Assembly: GCF_028712425.1 (NCBI RefSeq)
Contig: NZ_JAQTQD010000003.1
Span: 62,001-126,000 of the forward strand
DNA length: 64,000 bases
Direction of reading: 5' to 3'
From: Methanoregula sp.
GTDB lineage: Archaea > Halobacteriota > Methanomicrobia > Methanomicrobiales > Methanospirillaceae
The notes below the pieces were generated by a model. It saw only the letters and a list, made by a program, of their open reading frames with translations. It did no database searches and was not told the DNA's origin. The position numbers and the translations under genes were made by a program. Shown piece by piece: positions 55,917 to 64,000 of the stretch (positions within the stretch are counted from its first letter, which is position 1; each line of letters starts with the position of its first letter).

Positions 55917-57026
55917 ATGTCACGAGGGAGTATCCGGAAGATGTCAGTCATACCGGCCTCCTCTCGAATCGGTGCACTCTGGCAGCAGCGGATGCAGTCA
56001 ATGCGGGAATATTCCGTTGTCCGCGACGGAAATGCGTTTGAGGCTGGTTTCTCGCACTCCGTGATCTTTTCATCGGAATATGACCGGGCACGGATGTATC
56101 TCGACACCCTCCTGGACCGGCATGAAGGATTGGCATTCGAGACGATCTTTCGCGGCAAGGAGATTGTCAATGAAGGCGGTACCTGTTTTGCCCTTGAATC
56201 CCGTCAGGGGTATTCTTTCCCTTCGCTGGACAGCGACCAGCTGAAAGCCCGCCTTCTTGGAGACCTGACTCTTGTTCATGGCATCGGTCCTGCGATCCGG
56301 AAACGGCTCAATGCACGGGGATATCATTCCATCCCTGACCTCCTGGAGCACCCCTGTTTCCGGCAACAGGCAAAAACGGTCCTTTCCAGTATCTGTGGCG
56401 GGGACAGTTCAGCCATTATGGACCTTGCCGGCAGCCGGCATTCCCGGTCCCATCCATCGGTCCTGGGTGCAGCAACTCTCCACGAGCCGGAAGATTTTGT
56501 GTTCCTGGATATCGAGACCCTCGGTCTCTTCTCCCGCCCCATCATCCTCTTCGGTATTGGTGTTGTCGAATGCGGGCACCTCATCGTCCACCAGTATCTC
56601 CTGCGCGATATTGCCGAAGAGCAGGCAGCGCTTATTGCCACGATGGATCTTGTGTCCGGAGACCGGTCGGCCCTGGTCACATTCAATGGTAAATCCTTCG
56701 ATTTCCCCTATCTTATGGACCGCCTCGCGTACTATGGTCTTGGCTATCCGGCCACCATCCCCCATTTCGACGTCCTCCATTTCAGCAGGCGCCGGTGGAA
56801 AGGCCAGTTCCCTTCCCTTCGCCTGGCAGTTCTCGAACGCGAGGTCCTGAATGTCTCCCGGGAAGACGATGTCCCCGGCCAGATGGTCCCGGAATTCTAC
56901 GAGAGTTATCTACGGTCCGGCAATCCGGGTCCCCTCGTCCCCATCGTGGAACACAACCGCCAGGATGTGGTCTCGCTCGCTCTTCTCTTCTCGTTCCTGC
57001 TGGAGGAGGCATATGGCGGTTGCTGA
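55917..57026 (+). CDS. YprB/MrfB-like DEDD exonuclease
   Basis: The 369-residue protein has a helix-hairpin-helix-like segment LVHGIGPAIRKRLNARGY near residue 115. A RNase H-like exonuclease domain covers about 195-365: FVFLDIETLGLFSRPI (D-x-E), TFNGKSFDFPYLMDRL (Asp), FDVLHFSRRRW and EHNRQDVVSLALL (last Asp). This is the YprB family. In Bacillus the pair YprB/YprA (MrfB/MrfA) repairs mitomycin-type crosslinks. It is followed by the helicase partner with a 14-nt overlap. A TATA-like ctttaaac near 55904 would favour the in-frame ATG at 55941, removing 8 residues. Confidence 0.87.
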   Translation: MSRGSIRKMSVIPASSRIGALWQQRMQSMREYSVVRDGNAFEAGFSHSVIFSSEYDRARMYLDTLLDRHEGLAFETIFRGKEIVNEGGTCFALESRQGYSFPSLDSDQLKARLLGDLTLVHGIGPAIRKRLNARGYHSIPDLLEHPCFRQQAKTVLSSICGGDSSAIMDLAGSRHSRSHPSVLGAATLHEPEDFVFLDIETLGLFSRPIILFGIGVVECGHLIVHQYLLRDIAEEQAALIATMDLVSGDRSALVTFNGKSFDFPYLMDRLAYYGLGYPATIPHFDVLHFSRRRWKGQFPSLRLAVLEREVLNVSREDDVPGQMVPEFYESYLRSGNPGPLVPIVEHNRQDVVSLALLFSFLLEEAYGGC

Positions 57027-59325
57027 TCTCCTCCGGCTCCTTGATACCAATCCGGTCTTCCGTGCACGCTGCGTTCACCGCCAGGTCTACGAATCGGAAT
57101 CCCCGCGCTACGGCTGCCTTGATGCCCCGTTGTCCCCCTCCCTTGCATCCTATCTTGACCAGTGCGGGATCCGGCTCTACTCGCACCAGTGCGAGACGAT
57201 AAACCATGCCCGGGCCGGAAAAAATGTCATCCTTACCACCGCAACAGCCAGCGGCAAGACCCTTGCGTTCAACCTCCCGGTATTCTGCCATCTTGAACAG
57301 GATCCGGATGCCCGCGCCCTGTACCTGTACCCGACAAAAGCGCTCGCAAACGACCAGCTCCTGTCACTTGAACAGATGGCGCAGTACACGGGGATTACAG
57401 CAAAATCGGCGATCTACGATGGCGACACCCCCCAGTCAAAGAGGGCCGCGATCCGCGAACATTCCCGGGTGATCATTTCCAATCCCCACGAGGTCCATTA
57501 TGTCCTCTCCTGGCATGCCAAGTGGCAGCCGTTCCTCTCGAACCTGGACTATATTGTCATCGACGAAGCGCACCGGTACCGGGGTGTCTTCGGTTCGCAC
57601 ATCGCGTTCGTGATACGCCGCCTCCTCCGCCTCTGCCGGCACTACGGCGCAAGCCCGCAGTTTATCCTGTCGACAGCGACGCTGGCAAACCCCGTGGAGT
57701 TTGCACATGCCCTTACCGGGCAGGATTTTGTGCTGGTCGATACCGACGGGGCACCCCATGGCAGGCGGAATTTTGTCCTCTTCAACCCGTTTTACGATGG
57801 GATCAGCGAACGCTCCGTCCACCAGGAAACCAAGGATCTCCTGGTCTCCTGCGTGAAAGAGAATCTTCAGACACTCTGTTTCACCGGGTCGCGCAAGATG
57901 GCGGAGCTGGTGACGGTCTGGTCGCGGGACGATGCCCGGCGCATATCCCAGAAACTTGCCGACGCGATCTCCGTGTATCGCGCGGGCTACCTGCCGGAAG
58001 AACGGCGGGAGATCGAGCAGCAGCTGAAGGAAGGAAGACTCCGCGGCGTGGTCTCGACCAATGCCCTTGAATTGGGGATCGATGTCGGATCTCTCGATGC
58101 CGTCATCATTTCCGGCTATCCCGGCACCATGATGTCCACCCGCCAGCAGGCAGGGCGTGCCGGAAGAAAAGGGGGCGAATCCCTTGCCTTTCTCATTGCG
58201 CAGGCAGATCCGCTCGACCAGTACTTCATGCACCACCCGGACCAGTTCTTCTCCCGCCCGCACGAACTGGCGATCATCGACACCACCAATGCCTATATCG
58301 TTTCCGGGCACCTGCTCTGCACTGCTGCCGAGCTCCCCCTGCGCGAGGACCGCGACAGCGCGTTCTTCGGGGAAAACCTGTCATGCCTCCTGCCGGACCT
58401 CGGGGCAGCGGGGCTCCTTCGGAAAACGATCCGCGGGTGGGTCTATGTCGGCCGCGGGAGGGCTGCCGATGCCGTCCGGCTGGACGGGATTCCCGGGGAG
58501 TCCTTCCGGGTCATGTGCCATGGCAGGCTCCTTGAGACCATGGACCGCGGGCAGGCCTACCGCGAAGCGCACAAGGGCGCTATCATGCTCCACCAGGGCG
58601 AGACGTACGTGGTCAGTGAGATGGACCTCGACACCCACACAATCCGCGTTACGGAGACAGATGTCGATTATTACACGCAGCCACAAAAAGAAATTGACAT
58701 ATCAATCATCGGGACGCTGGAGACCCGGACGGTCAACAACACCCCGTGCTTCTTTGGTGAAGTGGAAGTGACAGAGCAGTATACCGGCTACAAGATCAAA
58801 CGCGGCGACACGATCATCGGCCTTGAGCCGCTCACGCTCCCGCCCCTGACCTTCCGGACAAAAGCCTTCTGGTTCATCCCGCAGGAATCCGTTGAACAGA
58901 CTATTACAGAATCCGGTGGCGATCCTGGAGGCGGCCTGCATGGCGTTGAGCATGCAGTCATCGCGCTCATGCCGCTGTATGTGATGTGCGACCGGTGGGA
59001 TATCGGCGGGCTCTCTTCCCCCTCGTTTGGAGAGAAGGGAGAGCCCGTGGTCTTTGTCTATGATGGGTACGAGGGGGGAATCGGGCTTGCCGAGAAAGCC
59101 TTTGGTCTCCTCCCCGAACTTTTTACCGCAGCGCACGAGCTGGTCCGCGACTGCCGGTGCGAGAGCGGTTGTCCATCGTGCATCTTCTCGCCCAAGTGCG
59201 GGAACGATAACCAGCCTCTTGACAAGGATGCCGCGGTGCTCATCCTCCGCGAGCTCAGCCACGGGCCGGGGGAAGCAGATAATGCTCCCATCGCGGCTGG
59301 AAAAAGCGAGGTTCAGGCCGCTTAA
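57013..59325 (+). CDS. YprA/MrfA-like DEAH helicase with DUF1998 zinc domain
   Basis: The 770-residue superfamily 2 helicase has Walker A TTATASGKTLAFN (residues about 75-87), DEAH in YIVIDEAHRYRG (183-190), motif III FILSTATLANP, and RecA2 motifs VVSTNALELGIDVGSLD and RQQAGRAGRKGG. The C-terminal part (about 600-770) is a DUF1998/MZB-type module with CRCESGCPSCIFSPKCGN zinc-cysteines. This is the layout of Bacillus MrfA/YprA and relatives of Hrq1. ATG 57013 is chosen; the frame upstream lies inside the exonuclease gene. The pair is therefore inferred to act in DNA repair. Confidence 0.9.
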   Translation: MAVADLLRLLDTNPVFRARCVHRQVYESESPRYGCLDAPLSPSLASYLDQCGIRLYSHQCETINHARAGKNVILTTATASGKTLAFNLPVFCHLEQDPDARALYLYPTKALANDQLLSLEQMAQYTGITAKSAIYDGDTPQSKRAAIREHSRVIISNPHEVHYVLSWHAKWQPFLSNLDYIVIDEAHRYRGVFGSHIAFVIRRLLRLCRHYGASPQFILSTATLANPVEFAHALTGQDFVLVDTDGAPHGRRNFVLFNPFYDGISERSVHQETKDLLVSCVKENLQTLCFTGSRKMAELVTVWSRDDARRISQKLADAISVYRAGYLPEERREIEQQLKEGRLRGVVSTNALELGIDVGSLDAVIISGYPGTMMSTRQQAGRAGRKGGESLAFLIAQADPLDQYFMHHPDQFFSRPHELAIIDTTNAYIVSGHLLCTAAELPLREDRDSAFFGENLSCLLPDLGAAGLLRKTIRGWVYVGRGRAADAVRLDGIPGESFRVMCHGRLLETMDRGQAYREAHKGAIMLHQGETYVVSEMDLDTHTIRVTETDVDYYTQPQKEIDISIIGTLETRTVNNTPCFFGEVEVTEQYTGYKIKRGDTIIGLEPLTLPPLTFRTKAFWFIPQESVEQTITESGGDPGGGLHGVEHAVIALMPLYVMCDRWDIGGLSSPSFGEKGEPVVFVYDGYEGGIGLAEKAFGLLPELFTAAHELVRDCRCESGCPSCIFSPKCGNDNQPLDKDAAVLILRELSHGPGEADNAPIAAGKSEVQAA

Positions 59326-59336
59326 TACTGGTAGTG

Positions 59337-59570
59337 TCAGTCCACCAGCACGACCCGGCTCTCAGGCGTCTCTCCCTCATCATCGAAGATGAAGAGCTCA
59401 TCGATCGTTGCATTCAGGGCCTTTGCAACCTCGTGGGCAAGTTTTAAAGAGGGATTATACTTCCCCTGTTCCAGAAAGACAATTGTCTCTCTCCGCACAC
59501 CGACCTTTTTTGCAAGATCATCCTGTGTCAGGGAAAGCTGAGACCGGTACTCTTTGATCCTTGTCCTCAT
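59337..59570 (-). CDS. XRE-family HTH transcriptional regulator
   Basis: The 77-residue protein has the Cro/CI-type [20 protein letters not shown] followed by [21 protein letters not shown], then the [13 protein letters not shown] end typical of this small regulator group. These usually pair with DUF2178 membrane proteins, as here, 27 nt upstream. ATG 59570 was chosen over one four codons upstream. Autoregulation through the inverted repeat at 60012-60035 is possible. Confidence 0.9.
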
Positions 59571-59597
59571 GCACGCTCCCACATTCTGTCAAATACC

Positions 59598-59984
59598 TTA
59601 ATCAACATCTCCTTTCCGGAAAAGCCATGCCTGGTAGACCACTGCAGAAAGGGCAAGGACGAGAATGGAAATGGTCAGCGCATTCTGTACACTAAGTCTG
59701 ATAAGACCTATGTAATCCAGCCAGAAGAGGCTGAACATGAAAAGGAGTCCGGTTAGCCATGCGTAAGATAATCCATATGCTCCGATCTTCTTTGATCGTT
59801 CATCAGATTCCGGTTCATCTCCGTATTTCCGGTGATTGATAATGCCGGTCATCGCAAAGACAATACCTGCAGCTATGAGCATCGATCCAATATTTGCCTC
59901 ACCTTCTGCCAGTACAACTGAGACAATACCGCTGATCAGCATCAGTGCTCCTATTATCATCCGGTACATGTTTCTCGGTTTCAT
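59598..59984 (-). CDS. DUF2178-like membrane protein
   Basis: The 128-residue protein has four hydrophobic segments: residues about 8-26, 33-50, 70-90 and 98-118. A middle cytosolic loop contains HRKYGDEPESDERSKKIGAYG, a pattern (DER...) shared with small membrane partners of XRE regulators. The function is unknown; a sensory role with the regulator is speculative. It is the first gene of the two-gene unit, with the AT-rich divergent promoter upstream. Confidence 0.78.
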   Translation of the reverse strand: MKPRNMYRMIIGALMLISGIVSVVLAEGEANIGSMLIAAGIVFAMTGIINHRKYGDEPESDERSKKIGAYGLSYAWLTGLLFMFSLFWLDYIGLIRLSVQNALTISILVLALSAVVYQAWLFRKGDVD

Positions 59985-62662: not shown

Positions 62663-64000
62663 TCAGGGAAGGATCGCGGAACGGACCGAGAGGAAGACCG
62701 GTCCCCGTACATCCACTTTCTTTTTGTTGTCGGTGATGAAACGCATCGCGTACTCATCGACCTTCAGGTTGATATCGCTTGGGAGCTTTGCCATCTTGAC
62801 CTGGACAGTTGTCTCCTTTCCGCACCGGGCGGCCTCCTCGATCCGGGCGGCAGCAAGGGCCGATACCGCGGAAAGGTAGGAGAGGCCGGTTGGCACTCCC
62901 CCGGTCCGCACCTGCTTCCACTTCTCGGCATCCGGGACCCCGAGCACCGATCCATCGTGGACGAAGATCTCGTTTGCACAGGCCGGCCCGCAGAGTTTCG
63001 CATTGGCTTCGGTCTCTTCGATAACAACCTTCACGCGGGTGCCGCCCAGCATTCCTTCCCATGCATCGAACGAGCAGGGCCCCTGTGCCGAACCGTTCGC
63101 TGCCGCAATCTTCGCGATCGCTTTTGCGAGCAGTTTGCCTTCAGGGGATGACGGCTCCTCGCGGAGGTGAACTGACCGTGCGATCTCCCGGTCCGAGAGC
63201 GGGCGGGAGAAGAACTGCGGGTACACGAGCTGCCGGACATCGTTTGCCCCGTACGCAATCATCGCGAGCCTCTCAACGCCAAGCCCCAAGTTCATGACCG
63301 GGACGCCGACGCCGTATTCCGCGAGCGCCGAGGGGGAGTACATGCCGAACGTCGCCACCTCGACCCAGCCATGGACCGGATGCCGGGCGTAGACCTCGGT
63401 CTGGGTATCCGGCATGTAGTATTTCGAGCGCTTCTCGTCCGGCTGGAAGCGGAAGTCCGTGTATCCAAATGCGGAAAGGAGCGCTTCACTGACCGCTTTC
63501 CCGTCCTCGATCGTCACATCGTCCCCGGCAATGATACAGGATGCCGAATGGTAGGTCATCAGCCGTGTCGGCCCCTCGGCCTGCTCGCGCCGGAAGCAGC
63601 GGTCGACCGAGAACATGCGGATGGGAAGCGGGCTCTTGTCCCAGATCGATCCGAGCGTTAAGAACCAGCCGCTCGTCATGTGGCTCCGGAGCGTAGAGCG
63701 CGAGGACTCGGGGGCGAGCTCGCGGAACTCGGGGAAGACCTCGTCAAGGATGTGGACAACCACCCCGTCGTCAGCCTCCAGCACTTTTGAGAGTTCGAAG
63801 GTCAGTTCGTCGCCGTCGATCTCGGACTTCTTGTACGCGTGGAGCGTCTCGCGGAGTTTCTCCTCAATCGCAGGAGCCATCGTCTTGCCGAGAATCCCGT
63901 TGATCTTATCGAGCCGGTCCCTTGCGATCCCCACGTTCGGACGCGGGAGGCCGCCAAGATAGAAGACCCGGTCGAGCACGGCCATTGCCTCGGGCCCGAA
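62663..64000 (-). CDS. sepS: O-phosphoserine-tRNA(Cys) ligase, partial
   Basis: SepRS charges tRNA-Cys with phosphoserine, the first step of the indirect Cys-tRNA route in methanogens. The C-terminal 445 residues are present and the frame continues past the right edge (FGPEA precedes the first visible Met). Class II motifs are visible: [38 protein letters not shown] and [21 protein letters not shown] as motif 3. The C-terminal anticodon-binding part includes [20 protein letters not shown]. It is convergent with the histidine kinase, 7 nt between stops. Confidence 0.93.

Follow-up and report, generated by a model that had tools for sequence, protein, structure and literature searches.

An exonuclease-helicase gene pair of Methanoregula and related methanogens is probably an archaeal DNA repair unit of the MrfAB type

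The window, a stretch of 64,000 nucleotides of Methanoregula DNA, carries an overlapping pair of genes that we regard as probably an archaeal DNA repair unit of the MrfAB type, in which a helicase and an exonuclease tethered to it would act at bulky lesions. In Bacillus, MrfA is a 3'-5' helicase and MrfB a 3'-5' exonuclease, and the two are epistatic and independent of UvrABC (PMC11194089; PMC12458937). The way in which MrfA and MrfB cooperate is unsolved, the Bacillus evidence being limited to an AlphaFold-Multimer model and two-hybrid data (PMC11194089), and the archaeal loci offer an evolutionary test of the docking idea with a named candidate segment. These loci also suggest that methanogens have an excision-repair route of this type, one that goes unmentioned in a review of DNA repair in archaea from 2020. 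The papers that we found report no biochemical or genetic data on the archaeal proteins. An exonuclease-helicase pair as such is not new, since Bell et al. (PMC12458937) recognize, in their tree of the YprA family, a branch for DNA repair whose members include MrfB-associated and fused forms; the inverted gene order, the inserted helix-hairpin-helix (HhH) module and the loss of the N-terminal segment in step with the helicase are not described in the papers that we read.

The gene pair and its surroundings

The exonuclease gene (55917..57026, + strand) encodes 369 amino acids and is followed by the helicase gene (57013..59325, + strand), which encodes 770 amino acids from an ATG at 57013; comparison of the ORF ends gave the same 14 nt overlap that a sequence-only reading of this DNA had reported. 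A second in-frame ATG of the exonuclease lies at 55941, with an AGGGAG box just 5' of it. Since homologues also start near this position, a protein of 361 amino acids is possible, and 55941 may be the true start. The nearest named contigs to the window helicase are Methanoregula MAGs, the best of them matching at 94% across the entire helicase. The genes around the pair seem to be of the housekeeping kind (SufB-like, transglutaminase-like, HAD phosphatase, HTH and uridine-kinase-like), and those that were scanned matched HAD phosphatase, HTH or uridine-kinase models, or no strong model. These neighbors are syntenic between Methanoregula and Methanoculleus. Adjoining the helicase, at 59337-59984, two genes, one for a small HTH regulator and one for a membrane protein, form a conserved pair that remains at the locus where the helicase is lost. 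Farther along the window (62663-63985), an ORF resembles by eye an O-phosphoseryl-tRNA synthetase of the archaeal cysteine pathway, a putative assignment.

The exonuclease

The exonuclease matched the RNase_H_2 family of Pfam (PF13482) with an E value of 8e-35. In a search of the PDB with a profile of 24 exonuclease sequences, MrfB (8un9) came first at 8e-37 and the next match followed at 1e-5. MrfB 8un9 was also the top VIA structural match to the AF2 model (pLDDT 85), with a Z score of 17.7 over residues 73 to 367 and the next match at 15.7. The catalytic domain spans residues 195-359 (56499..56993, + strand) and holds D198-x-E200, D262 (in NGKSFD), and H346 and D350 (in HNRQD), all of them invariant in 24 homologues; on these residues the DEDDh site is complete. 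L204 and F261 are the counterparts of the wedge leucine and the exo-II phenylalanine described for MrfB (PMC11194089), and both are conserved among the homologues. Judged by sequence and predicted fold, the protein is an exonuclease of the MrfB/YprB type, closest to MrfB among the DEDD nucleases, in agreement with the earlier proposal of a YprB-type DEDD exonuclease. The exonuclease family tree, built on 180 columns and with weak support, was left out of the claims about clades.

The protein shares with the solved MrfB core an N-terminal beta segment at residues about 73-98 (56133..56210, + strand), for which AF2 predicts strands at residues 80-85 and 88-98; the VIA alignment to 8un9 begins at residue 73, and Chloroflexota MrfB proteins match the exonuclease profile in this region (profile positions 56-89). 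Between the beta segment and the catalytic core lies an apparent HhH module, inserted at residues about 105-188 (56229..56480, + strand). The sequence-only reading had suspected such a segment ahead of the nuclease domain, and our results agree: G122-I123-G124 is invariant among the 24 homologues and the helices are predicted with pLDDT of about 90 or more. The assignment is based on these two features and on weak profile matches to HhH proteins of the PDB (E 0.05-0.1); no Pfam HHH model matched the window exonuclease above its cut-off. The linker from beta segment to core is about 29 residues long in Chloroflexota MrfB versus about 88 in the archaeal exonuclease. At its other end the archaeal protein stops 10 residues past the RNase_H_2 domain and has no TPR tail of the kind carried by B. 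subtilis MrfB. TPR matches do follow the core in Chloroflexota MrfB of 420-434 amino acids (L182, L188), and Chloroflexota members of 274-285 amino acids seem to have none, so that we take a C-terminal TPR as typical of MrfB rather than defining.

The helicase

Four Pfam domains scored above cut-off in the helicase: DEAD (PF00270), Helicase_C (PF00271), WHD_HRQ1 (PF22982) and MZB (PF09369). The last, the zinc-binding domain also known as DUF1998, occupies residues 645-724 (58945..59184, + strand; 1.8e-25), and its predicted zinc cysteines, C714-x-C716-x3-C720-x2-C723, are invariant in 17 homologues. By sequence, the protein matched B. subtilis MrfA in the PDB (6znp) at E 2.2e-151 over residues 45-725. 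Its AF2 model (pLDDT 85.7) aligned with 6znp over 726 residues (Z 39.9, rmsd 6.2, 38% identity), and the full-length MrfA fold, comprising winged helix, OB, connector and zinc domain, is found in the model. Sequence and model thus place the helicase in the YprA/MrfA family (COG1205-type), and the YprA-like identity and C-terminal CxC...C..C zinc module proposed from sequence held up. Grouping with Lhr or RecQ, which would have counted against that proposal, was not found. Lhr matched at 4e-24 over core stretches only, with a fold match (5v9x) of Z 26.9 over 468 residues, and RecQ models, whose cut-offs are 220-640 bits, scored about 39-52; Hel308 was likewise ruled out by family profiles, PDB sequence and fold comparison. 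The strongest NCBIfam model was TIGR03817 (SftH), at 789.1 bits and below its curated cut-off of 874.1.

Conservation of the pair

In a survey of 100 genomes of the order Methanomicrobiales, the exonuclease was present in 73 and the helicase in 62. Sixty genomes held both genes, and 58 of these carry them side by side on one strand, exonuclease before helicase, separated by -11 to +231 nt and almost always by less than 125. In one of the two exceptions (G056), a fragment of the exonuclease lies right next to the helicase on one contig, and this genome thus counts as adjacent too. This adjacency is conserved far beyond chance, and a lack of it in related genomes, the other outcome that would have counted against the sequence-only proposal, was not found. 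The exonuclease-first pair also occurs in 11 further genomes from three families of the wider phylum (f7, f14 and f15). Each gene is found alone as well: 13 of the 73 exonucleases in the order stand without a helicase at an unchanged locus, and most genomes of the Methanosarcinaceae-like group (f8) and of haloarchaea have a helicase without an exonuclease of the window's type (A1). A contig labeled Peptococcaceae bacterium (L049) carries a pair of the archaeal type that groups among the methanogens, and is probably mis-binned methanogen DNA.

The N-terminal segment and loss of the helicase in Methanoculleus

Ahead of the beta segment, residues about 14-44 of the exonuclease (SRIGALWQQRMQSMREYSVVRDGN...; 55956..56048, + strand) contain a predicted helix and an EYxVV motif, and form our proposed helicase-docking element. 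For the B. subtilis proteins, the N-terminus of MrfB is docked into MrfA in an AlphaFold-Multimer model (PMC11194089). The archaeal W-R-x-R/EYxV segment is conserved in most paired exonucleases. The paired exonucleases that depart from this are all 11 scored members of genus g20 and G117 of f15, in which it is missing or unrecognizable, and those of g22, of g24 and of some of f7, in which it is weak.

Most Methanoculleus genomes have no helicase and keep the exonuclease between the HAD phosphatase gene and the HTH/membrane-protein pair. Several of these genomes (G004, G034 and G096) are single contigs, so the absence of the helicase is not due to assembly gaps, and no leftover helicase fragments were found at the helicase-less Methanoculleus loci. 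Apparent remnants obtained with the L153 helicase as query were rejected, as they came from an out-of-frame extension of the L153 ORF over the exonuclease. Since Methanoculleus keeps the exonuclease alone, the enzyme would seem to have some helicase-independent role.

The segment was scored with an HMM trained on paired exonucleases outside the family of Methanoculleus, with Methanoculleus itself left out. In a first scoring, Methanoculleus exonucleases next to a helicase gave 24-33 bits and those without one gave 5 bits or less. A wider survey covered 35 genomes of the genus: the segment was kept (14-32 bits) in all nine exonucleases with an adjacent helicase, and was deleted or eroded (6.8 bits or less) in all 16 scorable exonucleases without one. 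The highest score among the latter came from G440, which keeps a W-R-A-R core and has lost the part that follows. The deletions end at different points, one genome (G084) lacking only the W-R-x-R core and another (G068) a much longer stretch. The exonuclease of G052, whose genome has an unlinked and divergent helicase, is still without the segment; G083 is an exception, having lost the helicase and kept a similar IAKRW stretch. On the trees there are only three to four independent contrasts, all in the same direction, with which a sign test cannot reach 0.05, and we therefore take the co-loss as strong circumstantial evidence and make no claim of significance. The loss of the segment along with the helicase points to its being a helicase-docking tail. 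In three Methanoculleus genomes (G427, G433 and G441) the helicase beside the exonuclease is in two pieces, owing to a frameshift or contig break; this is either an error of assembly or a first stage of decay that precedes loss.

Gene order and origin

The archaeal gene order was compared with that of Chloroflexota MrfAB loci; for Bacillus, the name mrfAB suggests that the helicase comes first. Of 25 Chloroflexota exonuclease loci, 15 have a same-strand helicase in the flank upstream of the exonuclease, and none has one downstream. The exonuclease leads in all 58 archaeal pairs and the helicase in all 15 Chloroflexota pairs. The archaeal order is therefore inverted, and the view that a methanogen shares the gene order of Bacillus was not borne out in this comparison with Chloroflexota. 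In a tree of 65 helicases, the MrfA of Bacillus grouped within the clade of Chloroflexota MrfA proteins (SH-aLRT 100), and the helicases of the archaeal pairs made up a clade of their own (SH-aLRT 100).

The separate clade, the inverted order and the HhH in place of a TPR would all fit an archaeal pair assembled independently of bacterial MrfAB, from a helicase of the YprA-only type and an MrfB-like nuclease. Against this, an AU test did not reject the archaeal paired helicases and MrfA as one clade (p 0.34), and the exonuclease profile gave 130-164 bits with most bacterial MrfB and at most 44 with other RNase_H_2 groups, which places both archaeal partners near one bacterial system. On the AU result, the data fit a single ancestral pair that was inverted as well as two separate assemblies, and we consider separate assembly possible but somewhat unlikely. 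It concerns the origin of the pair and is compatible with its reading as an MrfAB-type repair unit.

Proposed function

By analogy with Bacillus, the helicase would load on single-stranded DNA, use its OB/zinc canopy in moving 3'-5', and so open the strand bearing a bulky lesion. The exonuclease, tethered to the helicase through its N-terminal segment (residues about 14-44), would digest the exposed strand from the 3' end while the HhH module grips the DNA backbone in place of the bacterial TPR tail, and the gap would then be filled by polymerase and ligase. The two enzymatic activities, their polarity and the kind of damage repaired are taken from this analogy, and on the same grounds the archaeal pair may repair mitomycin-type damage. 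UvrB was found in 99 of the 100 genomes of the order, 91 of them over cut-off, and is present in the window's own genome. Because it occurs in nearly every genome, the MrfAB-type route would be an additional one, with the pair acting beside UvrABC and not instead of it. For the more specific proposal of an archaeal MrfAB-type complex in its own right, the case seems to us evenly balanced: here the W-R-x-R/EYxV segment would dock the helicase and be selected only while the helicase is present, the HhH would replace the TPR as the part that positions DNA or lesion, and the helicase-less Methanoculleus would be natural uncoupled variants.

The two genes could instead encode co-transcribed but independent repair enzymes that form no complex, the exonuclease working alone, as in most Methanoculleus, and the helicase being a separate SftH-like motor. 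The exonucleases that persist without a helicase at the same locus would fit, as would the Methanosarcinaceae-like helicases without an exonuclease of the window's type and the relatives in Chloroflexota and Actinobacteria whose helicase has no adjacent exonuclease. The near-absolute adjacency wherever both genes occur, with gaps mostly of -11 to +125 nt, and the loss of the N-terminal segment together with the helicase argue against independence, which we judge improbable. An antiviral defense module like other YprA-family systems (DISARM, Druantia, ARMADA) is highly improbable: the family of the window helicase does include defense helicases (PMC12458937) and it is matched by PADLOC profiles, BrxHI and DruE among them, but these matches mainly cover the common helicase core of the window protein, the exonuclease has no PADLOC match, and the syntenic, housekeeping-like neighbors that were scanned include no PglX-like methylase, BrxHII-like helicase, or PLD or Vsr nuclease.

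Comparison with known systems

The MrfAB-type repair unit proposed here most resembles MrfAB (YprAB), the mitomycin C repair helicase and exonuclease of Bacillus subtilis (6znp, 8un9; PMC11194089), with which it has in common the full-length helicase fold including the zinc domain, a DEDDh core with an N-terminal beta segment, adjacent genes and coexistence with UvrABC. It differs in the HhH insert of the exonuclease, the missing C-terminal TPR and the separate clade of its helicase, and, unlike the bacterial MrfAB loci of Chloroflexota, its exonuclease gene precedes the helicase gene. With SftH (TIGR03817), the actinobacterial YprA-only helicase, the window helicase shares the domain set and its strongest NCBIfam model, but it falls under the curated cut-off, and the SftH-type relatives that we examined have no adjacent exonuclease. 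Single ORFs of about 1000-1140 amino acids in Deltaproteobacteria and relatives (L104, L105, L107 and L108) also combine a YprA-type helicase with an RNase_H_2 nuclease; their nuclease, however, is at the C-terminus of the helicase and is not matched by the archaeal exonuclease profile. Three haloarchaeal loci (L124, L125 and L126) resemble the methanogen pair in having an HhH-bearing RNase_H_2 exonuclease directly upstream of a YprA helicase. Their exonucleases, unlike that of the window, are about 480-510 amino acids long with a long extra N-terminal region and reach only about 32-40 bits with the methanogen profile, and their helicase lies on a long separate branch.
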